Assembly: GCA_030693515.1 (NCBI GenBank) | Contig: JAUYAK010000117.1 | Coordinates: 1-64,000 of the forward strand | DNA length: 64,000 nucleotides | Direction of reading: 5' to 3' | Source: Opitutaceae bacterium | GTDB lineage: Bacteria > Verrucomicrobiota > Verrucomicrobiia > Opitutales > Opitutaceae | Shown here: positions 31,264-45,085 of the stretch, one piece after another | Layout of the letters: every line of letters begins with the position of its first letter | Numbering within the stretch: position 1 is the stretch's first letter | Notes under the pieces: model-generated | Database searches by the model: none | Told to the model about the DNA's origin: nothing | What the model saw: only the letters and a program-made list of their open reading frames with translations | Made by a program: the position numbers and the translations under genes

Positions 31264-32418
31264 ATGAGCACTTTCGACTTTGACCACGGGCCTGAGCGCC
31301 GCGGCACCGACTCCCAAAAATGGCAGAAATACGCCGGCCGCGATGTGCTGCCCCTCTGGGTGGCCGACATGGATTTCACCTCGTCGCCCGCGATCATCGA
31401 GGCCTTGCGCCGCCGCGTGGGTCACGGCGTGTTTGGCTACGCGCGGCCCGTCCCGTCCACGACCGAAGCGATCGTCGAGGCCATGGCGAAGCGCTACGGC
31501 TGGACAATCGATCCCGCCTGGATCGTGTGGCTGCCGGGGCTCGTGGTGGGGCTCAACGTGGTCGCGCAGGCCTTTGCCCAGCCAGGCGAGGAAGTGCTCA
31601 CGCTCTCGCCCGTCTATGCACCGTTCATGTCGGCGCCGAAAAACAGCGCGCGCGCCAGCGTGAGCGTGCCGTGGGCGCACGACGGCCAGGGCTGGGCGAT
31701 TGACTGGGACGCGCTGGAGCGCGCCGTCACGCCGAAGACCAGGCTCTTCTACCTCTGCAATCCCCACAATCCCCTCGCCCGCGTCTGGCGCCGTGCCGAA
31801 CTCGTGCGCCTCGCGGAGTTCTGCGAGCGCCACAACCTCGTCCTCTGCTCCGACGAGATCCACTGCGACCTCATCCTTGATCCGGCGCTGCCGCACATCC
31901 CCACGAGCGTGCTCTCGCCGGAAATCGCCGCGCGCACCATCACGCTCATGGCGCCGAGCAAAACCTACAACGTCCCCGGTCTCGGCACCTCGTTTGCCAT
32001 CGTCCCCGATGCGATGCGCCGCGCGCGTTTCCTCCGCGCCACCGCCGGCATCGTCGCCGAGGTCACATGCCTCGGCTTCACCGCCTGCGAGGCCGCGTAT
32101 CGCGACGGCGAGCCGTGGCGGCAGGCCCTCCTCGCCTATTTGCGCGGCAACCGCGACTACCTGCTCGATGTGATCGCGCGCGAGCTGCCCGGCGTGCGCG
32201 TCGAGGCGCCGGTCGAGGCCACCTATCTGCTGTGGATGAACGTGTCCGCGCTCGGGCTGGATAATCCCACGGCGCATTTTGAAAAACACGGCGTGGGCCT
32301 CAGCGACGGCGCGATGTTCGGCGCCGCCAAAGGCTCGCACGTGCGCCTCAACTTCGGGTGCCCGCGCGCCACGCTCGTCGAGGCGATGCAGCGGATGAAG
32401 GCGGCGCTGCCGTCCTGA
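31264..32418 (+). CDS. PatB/MalY family C-S lyase (aminotransferase class I/II fold)
   Basis: A 384-residue PLP enzyme. PLWVADMDFTSSPAIIEAL at the N-terminus, FYLCNPHNPLARVWRR, CSDEIHCDL and the PLP-lysine motif APSKTYNVPGLGTSFAI (lysine near residue 233) identify the PatB/MalY cystathionine beta-lyase group. It cleaves C-S bonds of cystathionine or cysteine conjugates. A longer frame upstream lacks coding character. The last 19 codons have a diverged copy at 33123-33185, after the dead dusB and IS fragment. Confidence 0.93.
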   Translation: MSTFDFDHGPERRGTDSQKWQKYAGRDVLPLWVADMDFTSSPAIIEALRRRVGHGVFGYARPVPSTTEAIVEAMAKRYGWTIDPAWIVWLPGLVVGLNVVAQAFAQPGEEVLTLSPVYAPFMSAPKNSARASVSVPWAHDGQGWAIDWDALERAVTPKTRLFYLCNPHNPLARVWRRAELVRLAEFCERHNLVLCSDEIHCDLILDPALPHIPTSVLSPEIAARTITLMAPSKTYNVPGLGTSFAIVPDAMRRARFLRATAGIVAEVTCLGFTACEAAYRDGEPWRQALLAYLRGNRDYLLDVIARELPGVRVEAPVEATYLLWMNVSALGLDNPTAHFEKHGVGLSDGAMFGAAKGSHVRLNFGCPRATLVEAMQRMKAALPS

Positions 32419-32436
32419 CTGCCTCTCGCCTTACCC

Positions 32437-32927
32437 GTGCGCCTCGGTCCCTACGAGCTTTCGTCAAATCTCTTTCTCTCGCCGCTCGCGGGCTACACCA
32501 ACCTACCCATGCGGCTCACCGTCCGCGAAATCGGCGGGCTCGGCTGAGCCACCACCGGCCTCGTCAACGCCCGCTCGGTGCTCGAGCGCAACCCCACCGC
32601 GCTCAAGCTTGTCGCCTCGTCGCCCGAGGACCGACCGCTGGCGATTCAGCTTTTCGGCAGCGTGCCGGAGGAGATGCGCGACGCCGCCGTGATGTGCCAG
32701 GAACTCGGCGCCTAATCCGTCGATATCAACATGGGCTGCCCCGTCCGCAAGGTGACGAAGATCGGCGGTGGCTCCTCCATGATGACCGAGTTCGATATGA
32801 CCGCCGCGCTCGTCCGGGGCATGATTGCTGCGGGGAAAATACCCATCACGGCGAAGATGCGGCTCGGCTGGGACGACGACAACCTCACCGCGCCCGACCT
32901 CTCGCGCGTGCTGGAAGACGCAGGCGC
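32437..32927 (+). pseudogene. Broken tRNA-dihydrouridine synthase (5' part), two nonsense codons
   Basis: Starting at GTG 32437, the translation (RLGPYELSSNLFLSPLAGY...) follows the intact dusB product at 43973-45085 closely for about 160 codons. In-frame stops interrupt it at codon 37 (TGA where the intact gene has Trp) and codon 93 (TAA where it has Gln). Homology ends at VLEDAG, where transposase sequence begins. The reading frame is otherwise kept, so the decay is recent or the copy was restrained by conversion. It cannot make a functional enzyme. Confidence 0.92.
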
Positions 32928-32945
32928 CAACCCCAGCCCGCGCCC

Positions 32946-33122
32946 GGCCTGCTGCACCACTCCGACCGTGGCGTCCAATACGCCAGCGGCGAGTATCGCG
33001 CCTGCCCGCAAGCCAACCGCTGCGTGGCCTCGATGAGCCGCAAGACCAACTGCTATGACAACGCCGCGATGGAGGCCTTCTGGAGCACGCTCAAAAACGA
33101 GCTGGTCCACCGCCGCCGCTTC
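32946..33122 (+). mobile_element. IS3-family transposase (OrfB) remnant
   Basis: The frame reads LLHHSDRGVQYASGEYRA then SMSRKTNCYDNAAMEAFWST and LKNELVHRRRF, the C-terminal integrase core of IS3/IS150-type OrfB with the second Asp (HSDRG) and the Glu (AMEAFW) of the DDE triad. The upstream part of the transposase, OrfA and terminal repeats are absent. It is joined in frame to a copy of the lyase C-terminus. It is a relic, not an active element. Confidence 0.9.
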
Positions 33123-33185
33123 GCCCCGCGCGCCACGCTCGTCGAGGCCATCCGCCGCATGAAAGCCGCCCTCGCGGCGCGTTGA
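33123..33185 (+). repeat. Duplicate of the C-S lyase 3' end
   Basis: The codons for APRATLVEAIRRMKAALAAR and a stop closely match the lyase ending PRATLVEAMQRMKAALPS at 32362-32418, at both protein and DNA level. Its position after the IS3 relic means the intervening block of dead dusB plus transposase is bracketed by direct repeats of about 57 bases. Confidence 0.85.
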
Positions 33186-35629: not shown

Positions 35630-35704
35630 GTAGGGCGGGGTCTGTGACCCGCCCTCCGTGCGAACACCCCACGCCCGAAAAGGCGCGTCACAGACCCGCC
35701 CTAC
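35630..35704. repeat. Paired palindrome (REP-like), GCGGGTC type, overlapping eboF stop
   Basis: GTAGGGCGGGGTCTGTGACC...CCCT at 35630-35655 and AGGCGCGTCACAGACCCG...CTAC at 35681-35704. The final CTA at 35701-35703 is the stop codon (TAG) of the minus-strand phosphodiesterase gene, so the repeat edge supplies a stop. Confidence 0.85.
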
Positions 35705-37065
35705 CCCAGACACGCCTGTAGCAACCGATCTCGCACCGCCGTCGCCGCGATCGGCGTGGGGCTCGCACCGGTGCCGATGATCACGGGCCACTCGTCAGAA
35801 TTTTTCGGACACGTGCCGTGTGAACCCTTCACGAGCGAAGCATCAAGCGGGATCACGTCCATGAGGCCGCGGAACCCGAGTTTCTTTTTCAACAGCTTGC
35901 CCGCGAGCGTGAGCTTCGGCACCGCGATCGCCGGATCGAGAAACAGCTCCACGGGATCGTAGCCATACTTGCGGTGGATATCGACGCAGCGCGCGAAGTC
36001 CGGGGCCTTGGCGTCGTCATCCCAATAGTAGTAGTTGAACCAAGCATCCTCCGCCGAAAATGCCACGAGATCGCCCGAGCGCGCGTGGTCGAGACCGGCG
36101 GCGCGTTGCTCCTCTGCCCCGAGCACGCGCGCCACTCCGTCGATCGATTCCACCGCGGCGCGCACGGCACCGAGCAGCGCGGGGTCGTTCACGTAGATGT
36201 GCGCGATCTGGTGATCGGCGATGGCAAACACCCGGCTCGCACCGCAGTCGAGCAGCTCGCGCCCCAGCTCGTCCTTGATCGTGAGCCAACCCTTGGCGCG
36301 GAAGACACGGTTGAGCGCGATCGAGCGGCGCACCGCCGTGATGCCGTATTCCGAAAGCACCACCGTGCGCACGCCGCGCTGCGCGTAGAAATCCATCAGC
36401 CCGCCCGCCACGCGATCGATCGCGCGGCAATCCTCCGCGATGCGTGGATCATCAGGCCCGAGGCGCTGCAGGTTGTAATCGAGGTGTGGCAGGTAAACGA
36501 GCGACAGCTCCGGCCGGTGCTTCTCCTCAATCCACTCGGCCGACTTCGCGATCCACTCCGACGAGGCGATGCCGGCCATCGGTCCCCAAAACGCCGGAAA
36601 CGGAAACGGCCCGATATCGCGCTTGATCGCATCGCGGATGGAGAGCGGGTGCGTGGCGACATCGAAGACCTTGCGCCCATCGGCGGGATACATCGGCCGT
36701 GGCGTGATCGACCAGTCGGCAGTCGAATGCATGTTATACCACCAAAAAAGTTTTGCGCAGGTGAAGCCGGGCCGCGCGGCGCGGCACGTCTCCCAAAGTT
36801 TCTCGCCGCGCACGAGGCGGTTGGACTGTTTCCAGAAATGGTGCTCCGCCAGCTCGCGGTCGAACCAGCCGTTGGCCACCGCGCCGTGGCCGGACGGCGG
36901 CAGTCCGGTGAGATAGGTGCTCTGCGCCGTGCAGGTGACGGCGGGCAGCACCGGCTGCACCCGAATCATCCCGCCGTCCTGCGCCGCGCGCGCGAGCCGC
37001 GGCGTGTGCGGCCCGATGAGTCGCGGCGTGAGGCCGACGACATTGAGAATCGCGGTGCGTTTCAT
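35701..37065 (-). CDS. eboF: Alkaline phosphatase-superfamily phosphodiesterase, EboF-like
   Basis: ATG at 37065 gives 454 residues of the nucleotide pyrophosphatase/phosphodiesterase fold: AILNVVGLTPRLIG at the N-terminus, PAVTCTAQSTYLTG with the Thr nucleophile region, GHGAVANGW, LVYLPHLDYNLQRLGPDD and VVLSEYGIT, with metal-binding Asp and His at the expected places. In ebo clusters EboF is such a phosphodiesterase-like protein. It is the last gene of the minus-strand cluster. The substrate is unknown. The expected catalytic Thr is present, so activity is likely. Confidence 0.87.
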   Translation of the reverse strand: MKRTAILNVVGLTPRLIGPHTPRLARAAQDGGMIRVQPVLPAVTCTAQSTYLTGLPPSGHGAVANGWFDRELAEHHFWKQSNRLVRGEKLWETCRAARPGFTCAKLFWWYNMHSTADWSITPRPMYPADGRKVFDVATHPLSIRDAIKRDIGPFPFPAFWGPMAGIASSEWIAKSAEWIEEKHRPELSLVYLPHLDYNLQRLGPDDPRIAEDCRAIDRVAGGLMDFYAQRGVRTVVLSEYGITAVRRSIALNRVFRAKGWLTIKDELGRELLDCGASRVFAIADHQIAHIYVNDPALLGAVRAAVESIDGVARVLGAEEQRAAGLDHARSGDLVAFSAEDAWFNYYYWDDDAKAPDFARCVDIHRKYGYDPVELFLDPAIAVPKLTLAGKLLKKKLGFRGLMDVIPLDASLVKGSHGTCPKNSDEWPVIIGTGASPTPIAATAVRDRLLQACLG

Positions 37066-37080
37066 GCCAATGCCTCCGAG

Positions 37081-37152
37081 GTGGGCGGGCACGTCCCTGT
37101 GCCCGCATTGACGCGCGCACCGAAATGCAGGCACAGGGACGTGCCTGCCCAC
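37081..37152. repeat. Paired palindrome (REP-like), GCGGGCACGTCC type
   Basis: GTGGGCGGGCACGTCCCTGT...CATTG at 37081-37110 faces ATGCAGGCACAGGGACGTGC...CCAC at 37124-37152, in the gap between eboD and eboF. Same type as 3546-3627. Confidence 0.87.
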
Positions 37153-37176
37153 CCGCAGACCACGCGTGCCAAAGTC

Positions 37177-38349
37177 TCACCCATAGCGTTGCCTCAGCTC
37201 CTCGAACGAGGCCCGCACCACGGGCCCGTCCATCTCATGCACATCCAGCCGGTCGCCCGGCGCGCGGATCATCGGGATGGTCAGGCGGCCGCCTAGGTGT
37301 TCGCGAAACTCCTCCAGCCCGTCGAGCATGTCCTGCCGGCCGCTCGGCCCGCGGATCTGTTTGATGGGTTCAAACAACTCGAAACCCAGCCGCTGGATCA
37401 GCGCGAGGATGCGCTCGGCGATCGGCTCCGGCAGCAACCCGACGCGACGCGCATAAATAAGATCGATCGCCATGCCTACGGCCACGGCCTCGCCGTGACT
37501 GACGCGAAATTCCGAGAGCTGCTCCAGCTTGTGCGCCGCCCAGTGGCCGAAATCGAGCGGCCGCGCCGAGCCACGCTCAAACGGATCGCCGCCGGTGGCG
37601 ATGTGCTCCATGTGCTGCCGCGCGCTTTCGCGGATGACCGCCTCATAGGGCTCGGGCTCGAACTTCGCCAGCGCCTCGACGCGCACCGCGATGAACTCGA
37701 AGAAAGCCGAATCGCGGATCAGCGCGACCTTCACCGCCTCAATCAGGCCCGCCCGGCGGTCGCGCGGCGGCAGGCCGTGAAGGAAGTTCAAATCGTTCAC
37801 GACGGCGTGCGGCACGGCGAAGGAGCCGAGCCAGTTCTTCTTCGTAAAGAGATTCACGCCGTTCTTCACGCCGAGGCCGCCGTCGGCCTGGCTCAGGCTC
37901 GTCGTGGGCAGGCGGATGAGCGGGATACCGCGGTGCGCCGTCGCCGCGCCGAAGCCCACGAGGTCGAGCACTGCCCCGCCGCCGATCGCGATGACGAAGG
38001 AGTGACGGCAAATCTTCGCCGCATTGATCGCAGCCCACACGCGCTCAAGCTGGCCGAAATCGTTTTTCACCGGCTCGCCGCCGGGCAGCGCGACGGGCGC
38101 CGCCTCAAGGACGATCCGGTGGGCGCGGGCGGCGAACCATTGCGTCATCTTTTCCGCGATTCCGGGAAAAGCCGAGGCGAGTCCCGCGTCCCAAAACACG
38201 ACCGCGCGCGCCGTGCCGCCCGGCTCGCGCGGCGTGAGGAGGTCCGCGAGTATGTCGTTGCCCGGCGCGAAGACATCGCGCGTGAAGATCAGGCGGTGCT
38301 CATGCCGGAGCGTGATGGGAAATGAGACGAGATCAGTGGGGGCGGACAT
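37177..38349 (-). CDS. eboD: 3-dehydroquinate synthase-like protein, EboD-like
   Basis: ATG at 38349 gives 390 residues of the dehydroquinate synthase superfamily: IAIGGGAVLDLVGFGAAT (NAD site), RLPTTSLSQADGGLGVKNGVN, GLIEAVKVALIRD and DFGHWAAHKLEQLSEFRVSHGEAVAVGMAID with metal ligands Glu, His and His. It is clearly divergent from housekeeping AroB, and its place between UbiA and phosphodiesterase genes matches eboD. Such enzymes cyclise sugar phosphates or related chains. It ends upstream of a palindrome pair. Confidence 0.88.
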   Translation of the reverse strand: MSAPTDLVSFPITLRHEHRLIFTRDVFAPGNDILADLLTPREPGGTARAVVFWDAGLASAFPGIAEKMTQWFAARAHRIVLEAAPVALPGGEPVKNDFGQLERVWAAINAAKICRHSFVIAIGGGAVLDLVGFGAATAHRGIPLIRLPTTSLSQADGGLGVKNGVNLFTKKNWLGSFAVPHAVVNDLNFLHGLPPRDRRAGLIEAVKVALIRDSAFFEFIAVRVEALAKFEPEPYEAVIRESARQHMEHIATGGDPFERGSARPLDFGHWAAHKLEQLSEFRVSHGEAVAVGMAIDLIYARRVGLLPEPIAERILALIQRLGFELFEPIKQIRGPSGRQDMLDGLEEFREHLGGRLTIPMIRAPGDRLDVHEMDGPVVRASFEELRQRYG

Positions 38350-38356
38350 GCACAGT

Positions 38357-39112
38357 TCAGGTGGAGGCGGCGAGACGTTGCGCCCAGCGTCCGAGCGGAA
38401 CCGCCGCGGCGCAAGCCAGCGCTGGCACCCACGCGCCCACAAGTAGCAGCGCGACCGCATCAATGAGCGGAATGAAAGCGAGCAACCGGCCCACCGAGCG
38501 GCCGATCTTCGCGGCAGGCGCACCGGGCGCGTATTCCCAACGCGCGATGAGACTGAGCGTGACGATGTAAACGAAGAGCGCGCCGACCCACCCGAGCAGC
38601 GACGACGTGAAGCCGTGTCCCGGCAACGTTGCAATCGTGAGCGCGAGCAGCACGCGGCAGCCAGCCATGAGCACGACGGAGCCGATCCAGCGTTTGTGCA
38701 GCCAGTCGTAGGCGAGGATGCACGCCGCCAGCGCCGCCGCCCAAGCCACAGAGGCGCCCGTGAAAATAATCAGCACGGCCAGCCCGAGCGCCATCTCGAT
38801 GCTGCCGAGCCACGCGGCGCCCGCCCGCGAGATGAGACCGCGCGGGATGGCACGCTCGGGCCGGCGCGCACGGTCGAAAGCCGCGTCGAAAACGTCGTTG
38901 AGCGTCGCTCCGCCCGCATACACGAGACAGCCGGCGAGGATCGTAAGCGCGAGCAGGCCGGGCGCCGGGAAGGCGTTGGCCGGCCCAGCCGAGGCGGAGA
39001 GCACGAGCGCCGCGAGGACGTTGCTCGCGACGGACGGAAAATTTCCCGCGCGCGCGAGGTCGAGGGCGGCGCGGAACAGCGAACGTCGAGACAGCTCTCC
39101 GTGGTTTGTCAT
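38357..39112 (-). CDS. eboC: UbiA-type prenyltransferase, EboC-like
   Basis: A 251-residue membrane enzyme with about eight helices. The prenyl-diphosphate/Mg2+ motif is GGATLNDVFDAAFDRARRPERAIP, of the NDxxDxxxD type, near residue 70; the second aspartate motif is weak (YDWLHKR). It should attach a prenyl chain to an acceptor. The ATG at 39112 lies inside a 29-bp inverted repeat; an in-frame upstream ATG at 39172 would add residues encoded by that repeat (ending FFASLRM). The stop is seven bases from the eboD start. Confidence 0.9.
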   Translation of the reverse strand: MTNHGELSRRSLFRAALDLARAGNFPSVASNVLAALVLSASAGPANAFPAPGLLALTILAGCLVYAGGATLNDVFDAAFDRARRPERAIPRGLISRAGAAWLGSIEMALGLAVLIIFTGASVAWAAALAACILAYDWLHKRWIGSVVLMAGCRVLLALTIATLPGHGFTSSLLGWVGALFVYIVTLSLIARWEYAPGAPAAKIGRSVGRLLAFIPLIDAVALLLVGAWVPALACAAAVPLGRWAQRLAAST

Positions 39113-39203
39113 TCTGAGCGAAGCGAAGAATCCAGCAGAAGATACGAAGCCGGCACGCGGCGCGAAGATCAAAGTGGATTCTTCGCTTCGCTCAGAATGA
39201 CAA
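39106..39203. repeat. Inverted-repeat element with 29-bp perfect arms (SLRMT type)
   Basis: Arms at 39106-39134 and 39175-39203 are exact reverse complements, with core CTTCGCTTCGCTCAGAATGA, around a 40-base centre. This sequence, read as SLRMT when translated, is a dispersed motif known from many bacterial genomes. It looks like a MITE or a large hairpin. It lies in the eboE-eboC gap and includes the eboC start codon. Confidence 0.9.
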
Positions 39204-39232
39204 CCATTGAACCTCGACTCCTGGTCGTAACT

Positions 39233-40408
39233 TTACGCCAGCCCGCGCGCGGCGAGCGCCGCGAGGGTCCACTCGTATTCGCGCACGAGTTGCTCCTCGA
39301 TCGGCAGGCGCAGCGCGGGCGGGAGCACTTCCCACGTGTAGGTCTCCATCTCGAGGTGCGTGCAGGCGCCGCGGTGCGCGGCGAGCCAGTCGAGCGCCTC
39401 GGCGAGGTGGTCGCGGGTGTCGGAGAAGGGCGCGCCGGGCGACGCATGCAACGGCACGTGAAAATGCACGCGCCACTCGTCGTCGGGCCGCGAGGGCTCC
39501 GCGTCCGCGAGCGCATCAGGCAAATCCGTGAAACGCCGCCGCACTTCCGCCGTGCCTTCGCGGCCGACGACCACCTGATGCAGGTAGGTCGGCTCGACAA
39601 AGGCCGCGAGCGCCGCGCGGCCCGCGGCGTCGGGCTTCACGCGCAGGGCGGAGCTGAGGTGCAGCTTGCTGAGGCGCAGCCCGGCGCCCGCGATCCGATC
39701 GAGCGCGGCGGCGGCCGACTCGAACTCAATCGCGAGGTGGCAGCAGTCGTAGTTCACGCCGACATGGCGGAGCAGCCCCTCGCCCTCGACCGCGCGATCG
39801 CTGGCGCGCCACTCGGCGAAAAAATCCACCGTCTCCGCACTCGTCTCGATGAGACAGCACGGCTCGGGCTCCAGCCCGAGGTGCAGATCGCGACCGGACT
39901 TTTTGGCGAGGGCGGCGATGCGCCGGCCGCAGTCGGTGAGGTTCGCGAAGATCGCTTTTTTCCGCGCGGGCTCGGCGGCGACGAAGGCCTTGAACGACGC
40001 GGGCACGGTGCTGACGCTCGCCGAGGCGCCGGGCGGCGTCAGCTGCACGAGCAGTTCGAACAACTGCAGCGTGTAGGCCACGCGCTCCGGCGTGGACCAG
40101 TCGGGCGCATAGACCTGCTCCTTCACCCGCGTGCCGTGGAAGCTGCCGTAGGGAAATCCGTTGATCGTGAAAACCGTGCAGTCGTGCGTCGCGAGCCAGC
40201 GTTGGAACGTGAGCAGGTTGGCCGGCTGCGCAAGCTCAGCGGCGGCGCGCTGGCCGAGGCGCAAACCGATGGCGTAGCTGCGGCCGGGGGCGACGCGGCG
40301 GCGGACCGGCAGCGTGTGCTTTTCGAGCGCGGCGAACGTCTCGGCCCACGTCTCCCCGCGATGGACGTTGGTGCAGTAGGCGAGCTCGAGGCCGCTGCGA
40401 AGTTTCAT
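39233..40408 (-). CDS. eboE: TIM-barrel metabolite traffic protein, EboE-like
   Basis: A 391-residue protein of the xylose isomerase-like TIM-barrel group. KLRSGLELAYCTNVHRGETW at the N-terminus, VFTINGFPYGSFHGTRVKEQVY, LGLEPEPCCLIET, VNYDCCHLAIEF, HFHVPLHASP and HLEMETYTWEVLP provide the Glu, Asp and His metal ligands expected. The opening YCTNVHRGETW and the length are as I recall for EboE. It is thought to act on or carry the cluster product; no enzymatic reaction is established. Confidence 0.9.
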   Translation of the reverse strand: MKLRSGLELAYCTNVHRGETWAETFAALEKHTLPVRRRVAPGRSYAIGLRLGQRAAAELAQPANLLTFQRWLATHDCTVFTINGFPYGSFHGTRVKEQVYAPDWSTPERVAYTLQLFELLVQLTPPGASASVSTVPASFKAFVAAEPARKKAIFANLTDCGRRIAALAKKSGRDLHLGLEPEPCCLIETSAETVDFFAEWRASDRAVEGEGLLRHVGVNYDCCHLAIEFESAAAALDRIAGAGLRLSKLHLSSALRVKPDAAGRAALAAFVEPTYLHQVVVGREGTAEVRRRFTDLPDALADAEPSRPDDEWRVHFHVPLHASPGAPFSDTRDHLAEALDWLAAHRGACTHLEMETYTWEVLPPALRLPIEEQLVREYEWTLAALAARGLA

Positions 40409-40431
40409 GGCGTGCAGAGTTGAGTCACACA

Positions 40432-40537
40432 GGACACAGAGCGCGGCCCACCGAGGGCACGGAGCAAGGCAATTGTGTCAGCCCGCGCGGCCCGCTCTGT
40501 GACCTCCCTGCCCTTTCCCTCTGTGCTCTCTGTGTCC
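40432..40537. repeat. CACAGAG/CTCTGTG-type imperfect inverted repeat
   Basis: GGACACAGAG at 40432-40441 with CCGAGGGCACGGAG at 40451-40464 faces CCTCTGTGCTCTCTGTGTCC at 40518-40537. It is the third distinct repeat type found between ebo genes, here in the 147-base eboB-eboE gap. Confidence 0.65.
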
Positions 40538-40555
40538 AAAATTGAGGGGAACGAA

Positions 40556-41374
40556 TCAGGCGACGGAATCGCCGCCGATCTTGAACTTCGGGCACTGCGA
40601 CAGGAAGCGGTGCGGATTCCGAAAGAGCACCGAGTCGACGAAATCGGCGCTGTGCCCGCGGCGGCGCATCTCGAGCGCGGTCTTCGGCACGGCGAGGGGA
40701 TCGCTCACGCCCCAGTCGCAGGCGGAGTTCATCCAAATGCGTTCGCGGCCGCAGATCTCCAGCATGTCCACGGCGCGCGGCGGCGAGGATTTTGAATCGG
40801 GATAAAGCGTGATGCCGGCCCAAAACCCGCGGTCGAGCACGCGCTGGATCGTGTGCTCTTCGACGTGGTCGATGATCACGCGCCCGGGCTTCACGCCGCG
40901 GTGCGACGAGAGGAGATCGAGGATGAGATTCGTGCCCTTCAGCTTGTCCTCAAGGTGCGGCGTGTGGACGAGAATCAGCTGGTCGTGCTGCACGGCGAGT
41001 TCCACGTGGCGCTCAAGCACGGTCATTTCGTTGCGCGTATTCCGGTTCAGGCCGATTTCGCCGATGCCGAGGACGTTGGGCCGGTCGAGAAACTCGGGGA
41101 TCATCGCGAGCACATCGCGGGCAAGCGCGAGGTCCTCGGACTCCTTGGGGTTGAGGCAGAGCCAGGAAAAATGCGGGAGGAGAAACTTGGCCGCGCGCGC
41201 CGGCTCATACTCGGTGAGCTGCCGGTAATAGTCGCGAAACCCGGAAGCCGATCCGCGATCGAAGCCGGCCCAGAAGGCGGGCTCGCACACGGCGACGCAG
41301 CCGGCGGTGACCATCGCCTGATAGTCGTCGGTCGTGCGGCTGACCATGTGGCCGTGTGGCTCGATGTAGCGCAT
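40556..41374 (-). CDS. eboB: TatD-like metal-dependent hydrolase, EboB-like
   Basis: A 272-residue amidohydrolase-fold protein. Metal ligands: IEPHGHM at the start (for the usual H-x-H), [11 protein letters not shown] (Glu), ILVHTPH and IIDHVEEHT (His), and NSACDWG (Asp). This set is that of TatD-related hydrolases, which are phosphatases or nucleases. Its position beside eboE matches eboB. It likely starts from ATG 41374, six bases after the stop of the upstream small gene, so the two are probably coupled. Confidence 0.9.
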
Positions 41375-41380
41375 GGGAGA

Positions 41381-41713
41381 TTATTTTTTCAGCGCCACCG
41401 CGTCAGGCCGCCACGCACCGAGCGCGGCTTTCCCGGAGGAAACAACCTCAGGCTCCCTCGTGGGGTCGCTGAGTTTTTCGAGGATGCGCCGGGCGCGCTC
41501 GGGTCGGCCATCCACGAGCAGCTCCGCCGCCTCGCGCAGCGCCGCGCAGCGAAAATCACCGGCCGTGCCATGCCGTTCGACCCGATCAAGAAAGGCCGCG
41601 ACCTCGATCAGCTTGGCGCGCACCGGGATGAACCCGTGATCCACGACCGCGCGAGCCGCCGCGGTGGGGACGGGCACACGGGTCGGGGAAGATTTGGCGC
41701 GGAGCTTGGGCAC
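41381..41713 (-). CDS. Short protein in the EboA position
   Basis: First gene of the ebo-type operon. GTG at 41713 gives 110 residues; TTG at 41761 would give 126. The protein is soluble and helical, with Arg-rich segments and ALREAAELLVDGRPERARRILEKL resembling a helical repeat. EboA homologues are about 200 residues or more, and I see no certain similarity, so it may be a minimal EboA or a replacement. Position and six-base spacing to eboB are the main evidence. It is divergent from idi. Confidence 0.6.
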   Translation of the reverse strand: MPKLRAKSSPTRVPVPTAAARAVVDHGFIPVRAKLIEVAAFLDRVERHGTAGDFRCAALREAAELLVDGRPERARRILEKLSDPTREPEVVSSGKAALGAWRPDAVALKK

Positions 41714-41805: not shown

Positions 41806-42369
41806 ATGAGCGAAGATTTGATCCTCGTGGACGAGCGGGACCGTGCGATCGGTCGCGGGGAGAAAATGGCGGTCCACGCCGAGGGGCGGCTGCATCGTGC
41901 GTTCTCGATTTTCCTCGTCGATCGTCGGGGCCGCCTCCTGCTCCAGCGACGCAGCCGCGCGAAATACCACTCCCCCGGCCTCTGGGCCAACTCGTGCTGC
42001 GGCCACCCGCGGCCCGGGGAGCGCACGCTCGCCGCGGCGCGCCGCCGGCTCGGGGAGGAACTCGGCGCGAGCGCGCCGCTGCGGTTCGGCTTCAAGGCCC
42101 GCTACCGCACCGCCCTGCCCAACGGCCTGGTCGAAAACGAACTCGTGCAGGTGTGTTTCGGCCCCGCGCCGAGCGACGTATCGCTCGCGCTCAATCCCGC
42201 CGAGGCTTCCGCCGTCGCCTACCTCACGCTACCGGCGCTGCGTCGCGACATCGCACGCCGACCACGCCGCTACGCCTACTGGCTGCGGCATTACTTGGAG
42301 AATCACTACGCGGCGCTGCGGAAGGCGATCGCGGGCACGCGGCGCAGGAACCGCAAAGGCGAGGGTTGA
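41806..42369 (+). CDS. idi: Isopentenyl-diphosphate delta-isomerase, type I
   Basis: A 187-residue NUDIX-fold enzyme interconverting isopentenyl and dimethylallyl diphosphate. RAFSIFLVDRRGRLLLQRRS, KYHSPGLWANSCCGHPRPGE (with the active-site Cys in NSCCGHP) and AARRRLGEELG are the type I signatures; the active-site Glu lies in ENELVQVC. ATG 41806 is chosen for its match to family N-termini. The gene is divergent from the ebo cluster, whose EboC enzyme uses a prenyl diphosphate, so a shared control region is possible. Confidence 0.93.
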   Translation: MSEDLILVDERDRAIGRGEKMAVHAEGRLHRAFSIFLVDRRGRLLLQRRSRAKYHSPGLWANSCCGHPRPGERTLAAARRRLGEELGASAPLRFGFKARYRTALPNGLVENELVQVCFGPAPSDVSLALNPAEASAVAYLTLPALRRDIARRPRRYAYWLRHYLENHYAALRKAIAGTRRRNRKGEG

Positions 42370-42400: not shown

Positions 42401-42613
42401 ATGAGCGAAATCATCTTCGATGTCCGGGAAGACGAAGTGGACGGCGGCTACAACGCGTCCGCGCTCGGTGTCGGCATTCATACTCAAGGCGAGACGCTCG
42501 AAGAACTGCGCGCCAACGTGAAGGAAGCCGTCGATTGCTACTTCGACGAGACAATGGTGGCGCCGAAGGTGATCCGGCTGCACTTTGTGCGGGACGAGAT
42601 CCTCGCGCGATGA
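42401..42613 (+). CDS. hicB: HicB-like antitoxin
   Basis: A 70-residue protein, MSEIIFDVREDEVDGGYNAS at the start, with the partial RNase H-like HicB fold: GVGIHTQGETLEELRANVKEAVDCYF. There is no added DNA-binding domain, so repression of the operon may be weak or need the complex. Its stop overlaps the toxin start by four bases (ATGA). The order antitoxin-toxin is a known variant of hicAB loci. Confidence 0.9.
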   Translation: MSEIIFDVREDEVDGGYNASALGVGIHTQGETLEELRANVKEAVDCYFDETMVAPKVIRLHFVRDEILAR

Positions 42614-42852
42614 AGCTGCCCCGGGACGTGTCGGGGCCGGAGCTGGTGAAGGCTTTGCGTGCCCTAGGCTACGCCGTGGATCGGCAGAAGGGTTCGCACG
42701 TGCGCGTGACCACCCGGCGCAATGGCGAGCACCACGAGGCGATCCCGAACCACCATCCGATCAAAACCGGCACGCTCTCGGGCATCCTCAAGAGTGTCGC
42801 CACCCACCACGGAGTCTCGGTCGAGGAACTCATTCGTCTGCTTGAGTTGTAA
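42610..42852 (+). CDS. hicA: HicA-like toxin (mRNA interferase)
   Basis: An 80-residue HicA/YcfA protein of the double-stranded RNA-binding fold. VSGPELVKALRALGYAVDRQKGSHVRV carries the conserved GSH with the catalytic His, followed by EAIPNHHPIKTGTLSGILK. It should cleave mRNA when free of HicB. Both key features are intact, so the toxin is probably active. It directly follows hicB and precedes a decayed gene of lower GC content. Confidence 0.93.
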   Translation: MKLPRDVSGPELVKALRALGYAVDRQKGSHVRVTTRRNGEHHEAIPNHHPIKTGTLSGILKSVATHHGVSVEELIRLLEL

Positions 42853-43972: not shown

Positions 43973-45085
43973 TCACCACGTGTCCACCGGCCCCTTGGGC
44001 ACGGGAATCGAATCGCGCTCGAAAACGCCGGCCTCGCCCGGTTCGCGCATGAACGACGCGACCAGCGGTGCGGGGCGAAATTTTTCCTGCAATTCGCCGT
44101 GCTCGTCGCAGAACTGCGCGCGCCACGCGAGATACTCTGCGATCGCGGCCTCAAAGTCCGCCGCCGACGTGATCGTGATGATGCTGCGCTTGAAGGGCTT
44201 CGAGGGACCGAACCGTTTCGCATACCACGGCGCGACCTTGCGGAAGAGCCGCGCGCCGTGCGCCTCGCCGTAAAACTCCACGTAGCGCGCGAAGTGCCGG
44301 CGCAGCACGCGCAGCCGCTCCGTGAAATCCGGCTCCGGCAGCAGCTCGCCCGTGCGCAGCAAGTGATCCGTGCGGCGGAAAATCCACGGATCGTAGAACG
44401 CGCCGCGGCCGATGCTGACGCCCGCGCAGCCCGTCTCGGCGATCATGTGCTGCGCAGCGGCGGGCGTAGTCACGTCGCCATTGCCGATCACGGGGATGCG
44501 TTGCACCGCCTCCACGACGGCGCGGATGCCCGCGAGATTCACCCCGCCCGAGAAACCCTGTGCTCGCGTCCGCCCATGCACGAAGATCGCGGCGACGCCT
44601 GTGTCCTCCAGCACGCGCGCGAGGTCGGGCGCGGTGAGATTGTCGTCGTCCCAACCGAGGCGCATCTTGGCGGTGACCGGAATTTTCACCGCCGCGATCA
44701 TGCCGCGCACGAGAGCGGCGGTTTTGTCGAGCTCGGTCATCATCGCGGAGCCGCCGCCGATGTTGACGACCTTGCGGACGGGACAGCCCATGTTGATGTC
44801 CACGGCCTGTGCGCCGAGCTGCTCGCAGATCACGGCGGCATCGCGCATCTCCTCCGGCACGCTGCCAAAGAGCTGGATCGCCATGGGCCGGTCCTCCGGA
44901 GCCGTGGCAGCAAGCTTCAGGGCGACAGGGTTGCGCTCGATGAGGGAGCGGGCGTTGACAAGATCGGTCGTCACCCAGCCTAGCCCGCCCAGCTCCCGCA
45001 GCGTCAGGCGCATGGGCAGGTTAGTGTAGCCGGCGAGCGGCGAGAGGAAGAGATTCGACGAGAGCTCGTATGGTCCGAGACGCAT
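43973..45085 (-). CDS. dusB: tRNA-dihydrouridine synthase (DusB type)
   Basis: A 370-residue FMN enzyme reducing uridine in tRNA. LFLSPLAGYTNLPMRLTLRELG at the N-terminus, DINMGCPVRKVVNIGGGSAMM with the catalytic Cys, VTAKMRLGWDDDN, IFVHGRTRAQGFSG and GNGDVTTPAAA and GCAGVSIGRGAFYDPWIF are all in place. The C-terminal helical domain is present. It is the intact relative of the broken copy at 32437. tRNA-Pro lies just upstream on the same strand. Confidence 0.94.
   Translation of the reverse strand: MRLGPYELSSNLFLSPLAGYTNLPMRLTLRELGGLGWVTTDLVNARSLIERNPVALKLAATAPEDRPMAIQLFGSVPEEMRDAAVICEQLGAQAVDINMGCPVRKVVNIGGGSAMMTELDKTAALVRGMIAAVKIPVTAKMRLGWDDDNLTAPDLARVLEDTGVAAIFVHGRTRAQGFSGGVNLAGIRAVVEAVQRIPVIGNGDVTTPAAAQHMIAETGCAGVSIGRGAFYDPWIFRRTDHLLRTGELLPEPDFTERLRVLRRHFARYVEFYGEAHGARLFRKVAPWYAKRFGPSKPFKRSIITITSAADFEAAIAEYLAWRAQFCDEHGELQEKFRPAPLVASFMREPGEAGVFERDSIPVPKGPVDTW

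Follow-up and report, generated by a model that had tools for sequence, protein, structure and literature searches.

Six consecutive genes on the minus strand of contig JAUYAK010000117.1 fill positions 35701-41713 of a 64,000-nucleotide stretch from an Opitutaceae bacterium (assembly GCA_030693515.1; the whole stretch is called the window below) and form a complete ebo cluster. The cluster is an EboG-form lineage variant of a known and still unexplained system, and its gene order, G-B-E-C-D-F, was found again in Opitutaceae relatives. An earlier note, made from the sequence alone, had claimed a complete ebo cluster in a putative Opitutaceae genome and had proposed a look at synteny across Verrucomicrobiota; the claim is borne out by the family matches and by the order recurring in these relatives. 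As to what the cluster makes, we propose, at what we judge to be even chances, a polar lipid that carries a prenyl chain on a cyclitol-type head group and serves the traffic of metabolites at the membrane.

Gene content, order and the leading gene

Homologues of EboB, EboC, EboD and EboF are clustered with an EboE that scores 443.9 bits against its own model, NF035939 (cut-off 250), and the small variable gene of ebo clusters, EboA or EboG, is present as EboG. In the per-protein profile searches that had been suggested earlier, EboE and EboD exceeded their cut-offs, and the best model for EboC was the EboC model NF035940 (88.6-88.8 bits over positions 3-185 of 292), below its cut-off of 250. 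That cut-off is uninformative for EboC, because all other EboC proteins scanned also fell below it: eight from other ebo clusters, one of them EboA-type, reached 70-135 bits and the SCO3242 protein 110.

Neither Pfam nor NCBIfam gave a match for the leading gene, nor did the EboA and EboA-domain models (NF035937, NF035938), which do match plasmid EboA proteins (L139, L142). In a four-sequence test, a hidden Markov model (HMM) built from Verrucomicrobiota EboG copies, without Deinococcus, scored 66.6 bits (E 3.5e-22) on the Deinococcus plasmid gene beside eboB and about 0 bits on three EboA proteins; profile comparison of window-type EboG with EboA by hhalign gave a probability of 0.1%. The Deinococcus gene is equated with published EboG by its position and by what PMC5133447 says of Deinococcales, rather than by accession. 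According to that paper (the ebo papers are cited here for their main texts), Deinococcales carry eboG in place of eboA, and the EboB tree separates the two types. In our EboB tree the window protein lies in a clade of EboG-bearing loci, and loci with detected EboG cluster (3 label changes against a shuffled mean of 11), imperfectly, as L037 and L136, without detected EboG, sit among them. The EboA models, the EboG HMM and hhalign together rule out EboA as the leading gene. The window thus carries an EboG homologue beside eboB and belongs to the EboG type, not the EboA type; the short gene keeps the place within the ebo set that the earlier note gave it, as EboG instead of classical EboA. Its AlphaFold2 model reached a predicted TM-score (pTM) of only 0.55, and Foldseek returned no PDB match for it at E up to 10.

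Both known types of operon can be compared with this arrangement. The EboA-type operon (ABCDEF; Bacteroidetes, Cyanobacteria and eustigmatophyte plastids; PMC5133447) likewise holds EboB, C, D, E and F homologues in a single cluster, whereas the window has EboG for EboA, the order G-B-E-C-D-F, a short EboC and an adjoining idi gene. The EboG-type operon (Deinococcales, Herpetosiphon, Thermithiobacillus and an Acidobacterium; PMC5133447) has EboG beside EboB, as here, but the order on the Deinococcus plasmid is D-G-B-E-C-F, and in the window's lineage EboC is about two helices shorter and idi is linked. The order G-B-E-C-D-F is absent among those that section 3.2 of PMC5133447 names in its text (ABCDEF, ABDEFC, FABDEC, DECABF), a comparison confined to that text and so leaving figure 3 and table S2 aside; the main text of the paper makes no mention of any word in Verrucomicrobi-. 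The Opitutaceae placement of the cluster, for its part, is supported by the labels of the nearest relatives of the window EboE: among the best 80 of 587, the 13 closest named loci (at least 72% identity over the whole protein) are labelled Opitutaceae, Opitutae or Opitutus in nine cases and Verrucomicrobia or Verrucomicrobiia in four.

Table 1. Features of the ebo region, with positions in the window
Feature	Position	Strand	Evidence
eboG (110 aa, GTG start; short leading gene)	41381..41713	-	EboG profile test; EboA models without match
eboB, TatD/amidohydrolase-superfamily metalloenzyme	40556..41374	-	PF01026 8e-9; metal-ligand motifs; EboB tree position
eboE, xylose-isomerase-like TIM barrel	39233..40408	-	NF035939 443.9 bits
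eboC, short UbiA-type prenyltransferase (251 aa)	38357..39112	-	PF01040 6e-14; NDxxDxxxD; AlphaFold2
eboD, sugar-phosphate-cyclase-superfamily enzyme	37177..38349	-	NF004852; altered DEKE
eboF, alkaline-phosphatase-superfamily protein, altered metal site	35701..37065	-	PF01663 5e-55
idi, type-I isopentenyl-diphosphate isomerase, divergent from eboG	41806..42369	+	NF002995; TIGR02150
dispersed palindromic repeat, eboE-eboC junction	39106..39203		perfect 29-nt inverted repeat

The enzymes and the isoprenoid link

Judged from its sequence, EboD is a sugar-phosphate-cyclase-superfamily enzyme and not a 3-dehydroquinate (DHQ) synthase. It scores 503.4 bits against NF004852 (PRK06203; cut-off 333) and 193.4 bits against the AroB model, short of the cut-off of 305. 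The DEKE substrate motif, as present in five solved DHQ synthases, reads D-P-F/Y-E in 53 of 53 EboD proteins, with the next Arg shifted by one residue; the genome's own AroB has DERE at this position. These results bear on the simplest alternative, that housekeeping aroB, ubiA and tatD genes merely lie together by chance, which has the Pfam-level names in its favour and which we consider very improbable. The same genome holds another AroB, two other UbiA-superfamily proteins and three more matches to the TatD family, of which two are strong. Quick maximum-likelihood trees placed two TatD and two UbiA paralogues outside the ebo proteins with SH-aLRT (Shimodaira-Hasegawa-like approximate likelihood ratio test) values of 100 and 90, although these trees are coarse, with very long outgroup branches and some outgroup rows that keep long unannotated N-terminal stretches. 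In the EboD tree the sole AroB row served as root and tests nothing, the case for EboD resting on model cut-offs and motif. EboE, moreover, passes its own curated cut-off, and the gene order is conserved across many genomes. The paralogues elsewhere, the trees, the AroB cut-off and the lost DEKE motif rule the housekeeping explanation out, and the grouping with housekeeping AroB, UbiA and TatD that the earlier note had named as its refutation did not appear, since the TatD and UbiA paralogues lie outside the ebo clades and EboD lacks both the AroB score and the motif.

Outside the window's lineage the place of EboD can be taken by another cyclase. Among the matches listed for 48 plasmid records with EboE, inositol-3-phosphate synthase lay within 8 kb in 29, EboD in 15, both in none and neither in four, one of which is a fragment at the record end; the count covers the best 60 of 124 synthase records and the best 60 of 115 EboD records, weaker matches lying outside it. 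The synthase records come from Streptomyces (25 of 29), Embleya (two), Nonomuraea and Gemmatirosa (one each). Three Streptomyces clusters (L142, L223, L225) hold, in a row, inositol-3-phosphate synthase, an SCO3242-family prenyltransferase, a sugar-phosphate isomerase, an EboA-domain protein, EboB, EboE and EboF, with Pfam confirming synthase and UbiA in one of the three. They have EboB, EboE, EboF and a UbiA-type prenyltransferase in common with the window, and differ in having the synthase for EboD, a prenyltransferase of the SCO3242 family, the extra isomerase and the EboA domain. SCO3242 and SCO3243, a myo-inositol phosphate synthase, lie inside the range of genes that PMC3610822 gives for the CDA antibiotic cluster of S. 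coelicolor. The swap is seen elsewhere and not in the window's lineage, as tblastn found no inositol synthase in 157 loci, the Verrucomicrobiota ones among them, except in the positive control L142. On plasmid records EboD and inositol-3-phosphate synthase exclude each other, which gives independent support to a cyclitol head group. The word 'inositol' is absent from the main texts of the ebo papers (supplements were outside the scope), and literature searches with terms for both turned up no paper that connects them. On one Streptomyces plasmid a lone eboE (L226:7761-8939) stands in an annotated aromatic polyketide-type set with ketosynthase chain-length factor and aromatase/cyclase; no further ebo gene is annotated there in 16 kb.

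EboB matches the TatD family (PF01026, 8e-9) more weakly than EboF matches PF01663 (5e-55), and keeps its metal-ligand motifs in 49 of 49 proteins. In EboE, eight residues (E180, D221, H224, H277, H315, H317, E353, E355) are invariant over 19 sequences; comparison with solved structures gave two weak, unconvincing matches (E 0.04 and 0.12). EboF departs from its family at the metal site. Relative to solved NPPs, the first zinc Asp is replaced by V or A, one His by Q and one His by Y in 46 of 46 proteins, while a further Asp is E in 34, the window protein among them, and retained in 12, all of the latter from other Verrucomicrobiota. By XaNPP numbering we take these changes to be D54 to V/A, H214 to Q, H258 to Y and D257 to E. 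Thr, Asn and one Asp (D210) are kept in all 46, as is the His of a G-S/T/A-H-G motif, presumably the sixth ligand, H363, before which the printed alignments ended. The residue two before the lost Asp was considered as a replacement ligand and rejected, since it varies among N, D, Q, S, A and L in the aligned sequences. EboF therefore does not have the type-I phosphodiesterase/NPP catalytic site of two metals, six ligands and a Thr nucleophile, and the name 'phosphodiesterase' given to it in the earlier note is doubtful, three ligand positions being altered throughout and a fourth in most; of the 'phosphoesterases' proposed there, EboB at least retains its metal motifs. Verrucomicrobiota, two Alphaproteobacteria, a Deinococcus and a Streptomyces all conserve these substitutions, a pattern that suggests a repurposed site rather than a decayed one.

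EboC belongs to the UbiA superfamily by its Asp-rich motif and its fold. N72, D73, D76 and D80, which make up the first Asp-rich motif (NDxxDxxxD), are invariant over 23 sequences, and the AlphaFold2 model (mean predicted local distance difference test score, pLDDT, 91.7; pTM 0.89) has eight membrane-length helices, a kinked one counted once, against ten in a flavobacterial EboC (PMC9235831). Compared with longer EboC, a stretch worth about two helices is missing after the LAR-E motif and ahead of the final two helices. The fold is shared with archaeal UbiA-fold enzymes (DGGGP synthase 7bpu/6m31; A. fulgidus UbiA 4tq3-4tq6) and with the membrane phosphoribosyltransferase 8j8j, at 12-17% identity and a root-mean-square deviation of about 6-11; the best Foldseek E against UbiA structures was 2.7e-4, with TM-scores of about 0.5-0.6, and only two of the matches pass E 0.001. 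With start codons picked by rule, EboC measures 237-262 residues in 25 of 32 Opitutaceae loci, the window among them, and 287-296 in seven; outside the family one of 24 is short (L110:12114-12887, 258 residues) and the others have 282-358. EboC was found in 45 of the 80 named loci, a set that partly shares contigs with these: 13 are short (237-251), one is a fragment and 31 have 283-338 residues. That so many genomes share the short form speaks against a local frameshift. Among the Opitutaceae whose EboC is long, genes for a sensor kinase/response regulator or a TrkA-type ion channel lie inside the ebo set (L034:6864-8969, L037:10010-12487, L042:13955-17116, L043:12182-13912). Upstream, one arm of the inverted repeat at the eboE-eboC junction (40-nt loop) holds the eboC ATG start; the repeat is dispersed, with 19 arms in the genome at no more than one mismatch, and a reversed-pattern control gave none.

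The gene divergent from eboG encodes a type-I isopentenyl-diphosphate (IPP) isomerase (NF002995, 159.5 bits, cut-off 127; TIGR02150, 117.5 bits, cut-off 105.8). In 20 of the 55 ebo-positive Opitutaceae genomes, idi is found no more than 5 kb from eboE. Counted at TIGR02150 scores of at least 105 bits (36 genomes, one just below cut-off), idi occurs in 31 of 55 ebo-positive and 5 of 145 ebo-negative genomes (Fisher 2e-16). These genomes are relatives of one another, with numerous drafts among them; the adjacent pairs themselves account for 20 of the 31, and in the remaining 11 idi lies elsewhere. Stratified over nine genera, the comparison gave a chi-square of 6.97 and an odds ratio of about 21. 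The linkage supports an isoprenoid demand of the ebo system; 'isopentenyl' is absent from the main texts of the ebo papers.

Distribution and surroundings

EboE was detected in 55 of 200 Opitutaceae-family genomes and in 154 of 387 sampled across the phylum; among 14 control genomes only Haloferax volcanii matched the model, below cut-off. The best 80 of 587 EboE relatives carry names of Verrucomicrobiota groups, except two labelled just 'bacterium'. Elsewhere in the phylum (L099-L138) the ebo genes are often scattered, and eboE was the only one detected in 12 of 40 loci with Opitutaceae profiles at more than 25 bits.

The neighbours in the window (hydroxyacid dehydrogenase, FKBP, GDSL, DUS, HicA-like) have no match in the loci of 33 relatives. 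Some Opitutaceae loci instead carry PPi-type phosphofructokinase and purB beside eboF (as open reading frame families, in as many as 10 of 34 loci) and CstA beside idi/eboG (in as many as 8 of 34), flanks seen in L055, L057, L054, L059 and L048; the window flanks differ. We read these genes as probably marking an ancestral chromosome position, not a function. Downstream of idi, the small open reading frame at 42535-42852 is, we assume, HicA-like. On the other side, at 32358-33185, the tRNA-dihydrouridine synthase gene of 43973-45085 is partly duplicated (83% identical over 32437-32925), within an open reading frame whose end presumably resembles an IS3-type transposase tail.

The possible product and its alternatives

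In the proposed pathway, EboD would turn a sugar phosphate, which is probably a heptulose 7-phosphate, into a ring; EboE and EboB, in each of which metal-type residues are conserved, may rework ring or chain; membrane-embedded EboC would attach a prenyl chain, its supply aided by the neighbouring IPP isomerase; and EboF and EboG may act as accessory or binding components. By analogy with Nostoc, the product would then assist in transporting a small molecule at the membrane or in keeping it there. The prenylated cyclitol or carrier idea is itself a hypothesis of Yurchenko 2016 (PMC5133447) and Klicki 2018 (PMC6282210), so that the cyclitol-like or quinone-like lipid carrier of the earlier note restated a published idea, to which the idi linkage and the exclusion between EboD and inositol-3-phosphate synthase now add support. 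Marine bacterial EboC homologues are working farnesyltransferases in vitro (PMC9235831), and Nostoc ebo deletions, eboD not being among those described in PMC6282210, hold the scytonemin monomer in the cytoplasm. Several observations weigh against the proposal. The only EboC homologues assayed put farnesyl on quinoline acids, for example 8-hydroxyquinoline-2-carboxylic acid, and preferred these, with no cyclitol acceptor reported in the part of PMC9235831 drawn on here; many of the Streptomyces records behind the cyclase swap are near-identical and amount to few independent events; a strong type-I idi is missing in 24 of the 55 ebo-positive genomes; and the recurrent flanking genes are mostly housekeeping, no search aimed at an export partner having been made.

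The same in vitro farnesylation, which extends to quinaldic acid (PMC9235831), would suit a scheme in which EboC prenylates an aromatic acceptor, quinoline-like or phenolic, and EboD makes an aromatic-pathway precursor, to give a quinone- or quinoline-like lipid. We find this improbable, as the synthase standing in EboD's place in 29 of the 48 plasmid records, among the matches listed, points to a non-aromatic cyclitol, and EboD has lost the DEKE motif of DHQ synthase. Rather less far-fetched, if still unlikely, is that the prenylated compound is itself the end product, a protective secondary metabolite, secreted or at the surface (anti-grazer, for example), and no general carrier. Pseudomonas fluorescens NZI7 with ebo insertions becomes edible to nematodes (as told in PMC6282210), Yurchenko 2016 proposed a protective isoprenoid-cyclitol compound (PMC5133447), and EboE is patchy in the Opitutaceae family (55 of 200 genomes); in ebo mutants of Nostoc, however, the same scytonemin monomer, unmodified, builds up within the cell (PMC6282210), in keeping with an ancillary role. 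To the prenylated cyclitol lipid we would tentatively give a fuller form, in which two unrelated cyclases, EboD or inositol-3-phosphate synthase, serve the head group, Opitutaceae bring their own IPP isomerase and an eight-helix UbiA protein, and EboF is a non-canonical alkaline-phosphatase-fold protein, not a phosphodiesterase; in this detail it is somewhat more likely to be wrong than right.

Clusters of the ebo kind occur in a wide range of phyla. The exclusion between EboD and inositol-3-phosphate synthase offers a concrete, testable guess for the ebo head group, and the linked idi supports the isoprenoid half of the molecule. Furthermore, the altered site of EboF changes which reaction to look for, and the short EboC of Opitutaceae is a natural minimal version for biochemistry.

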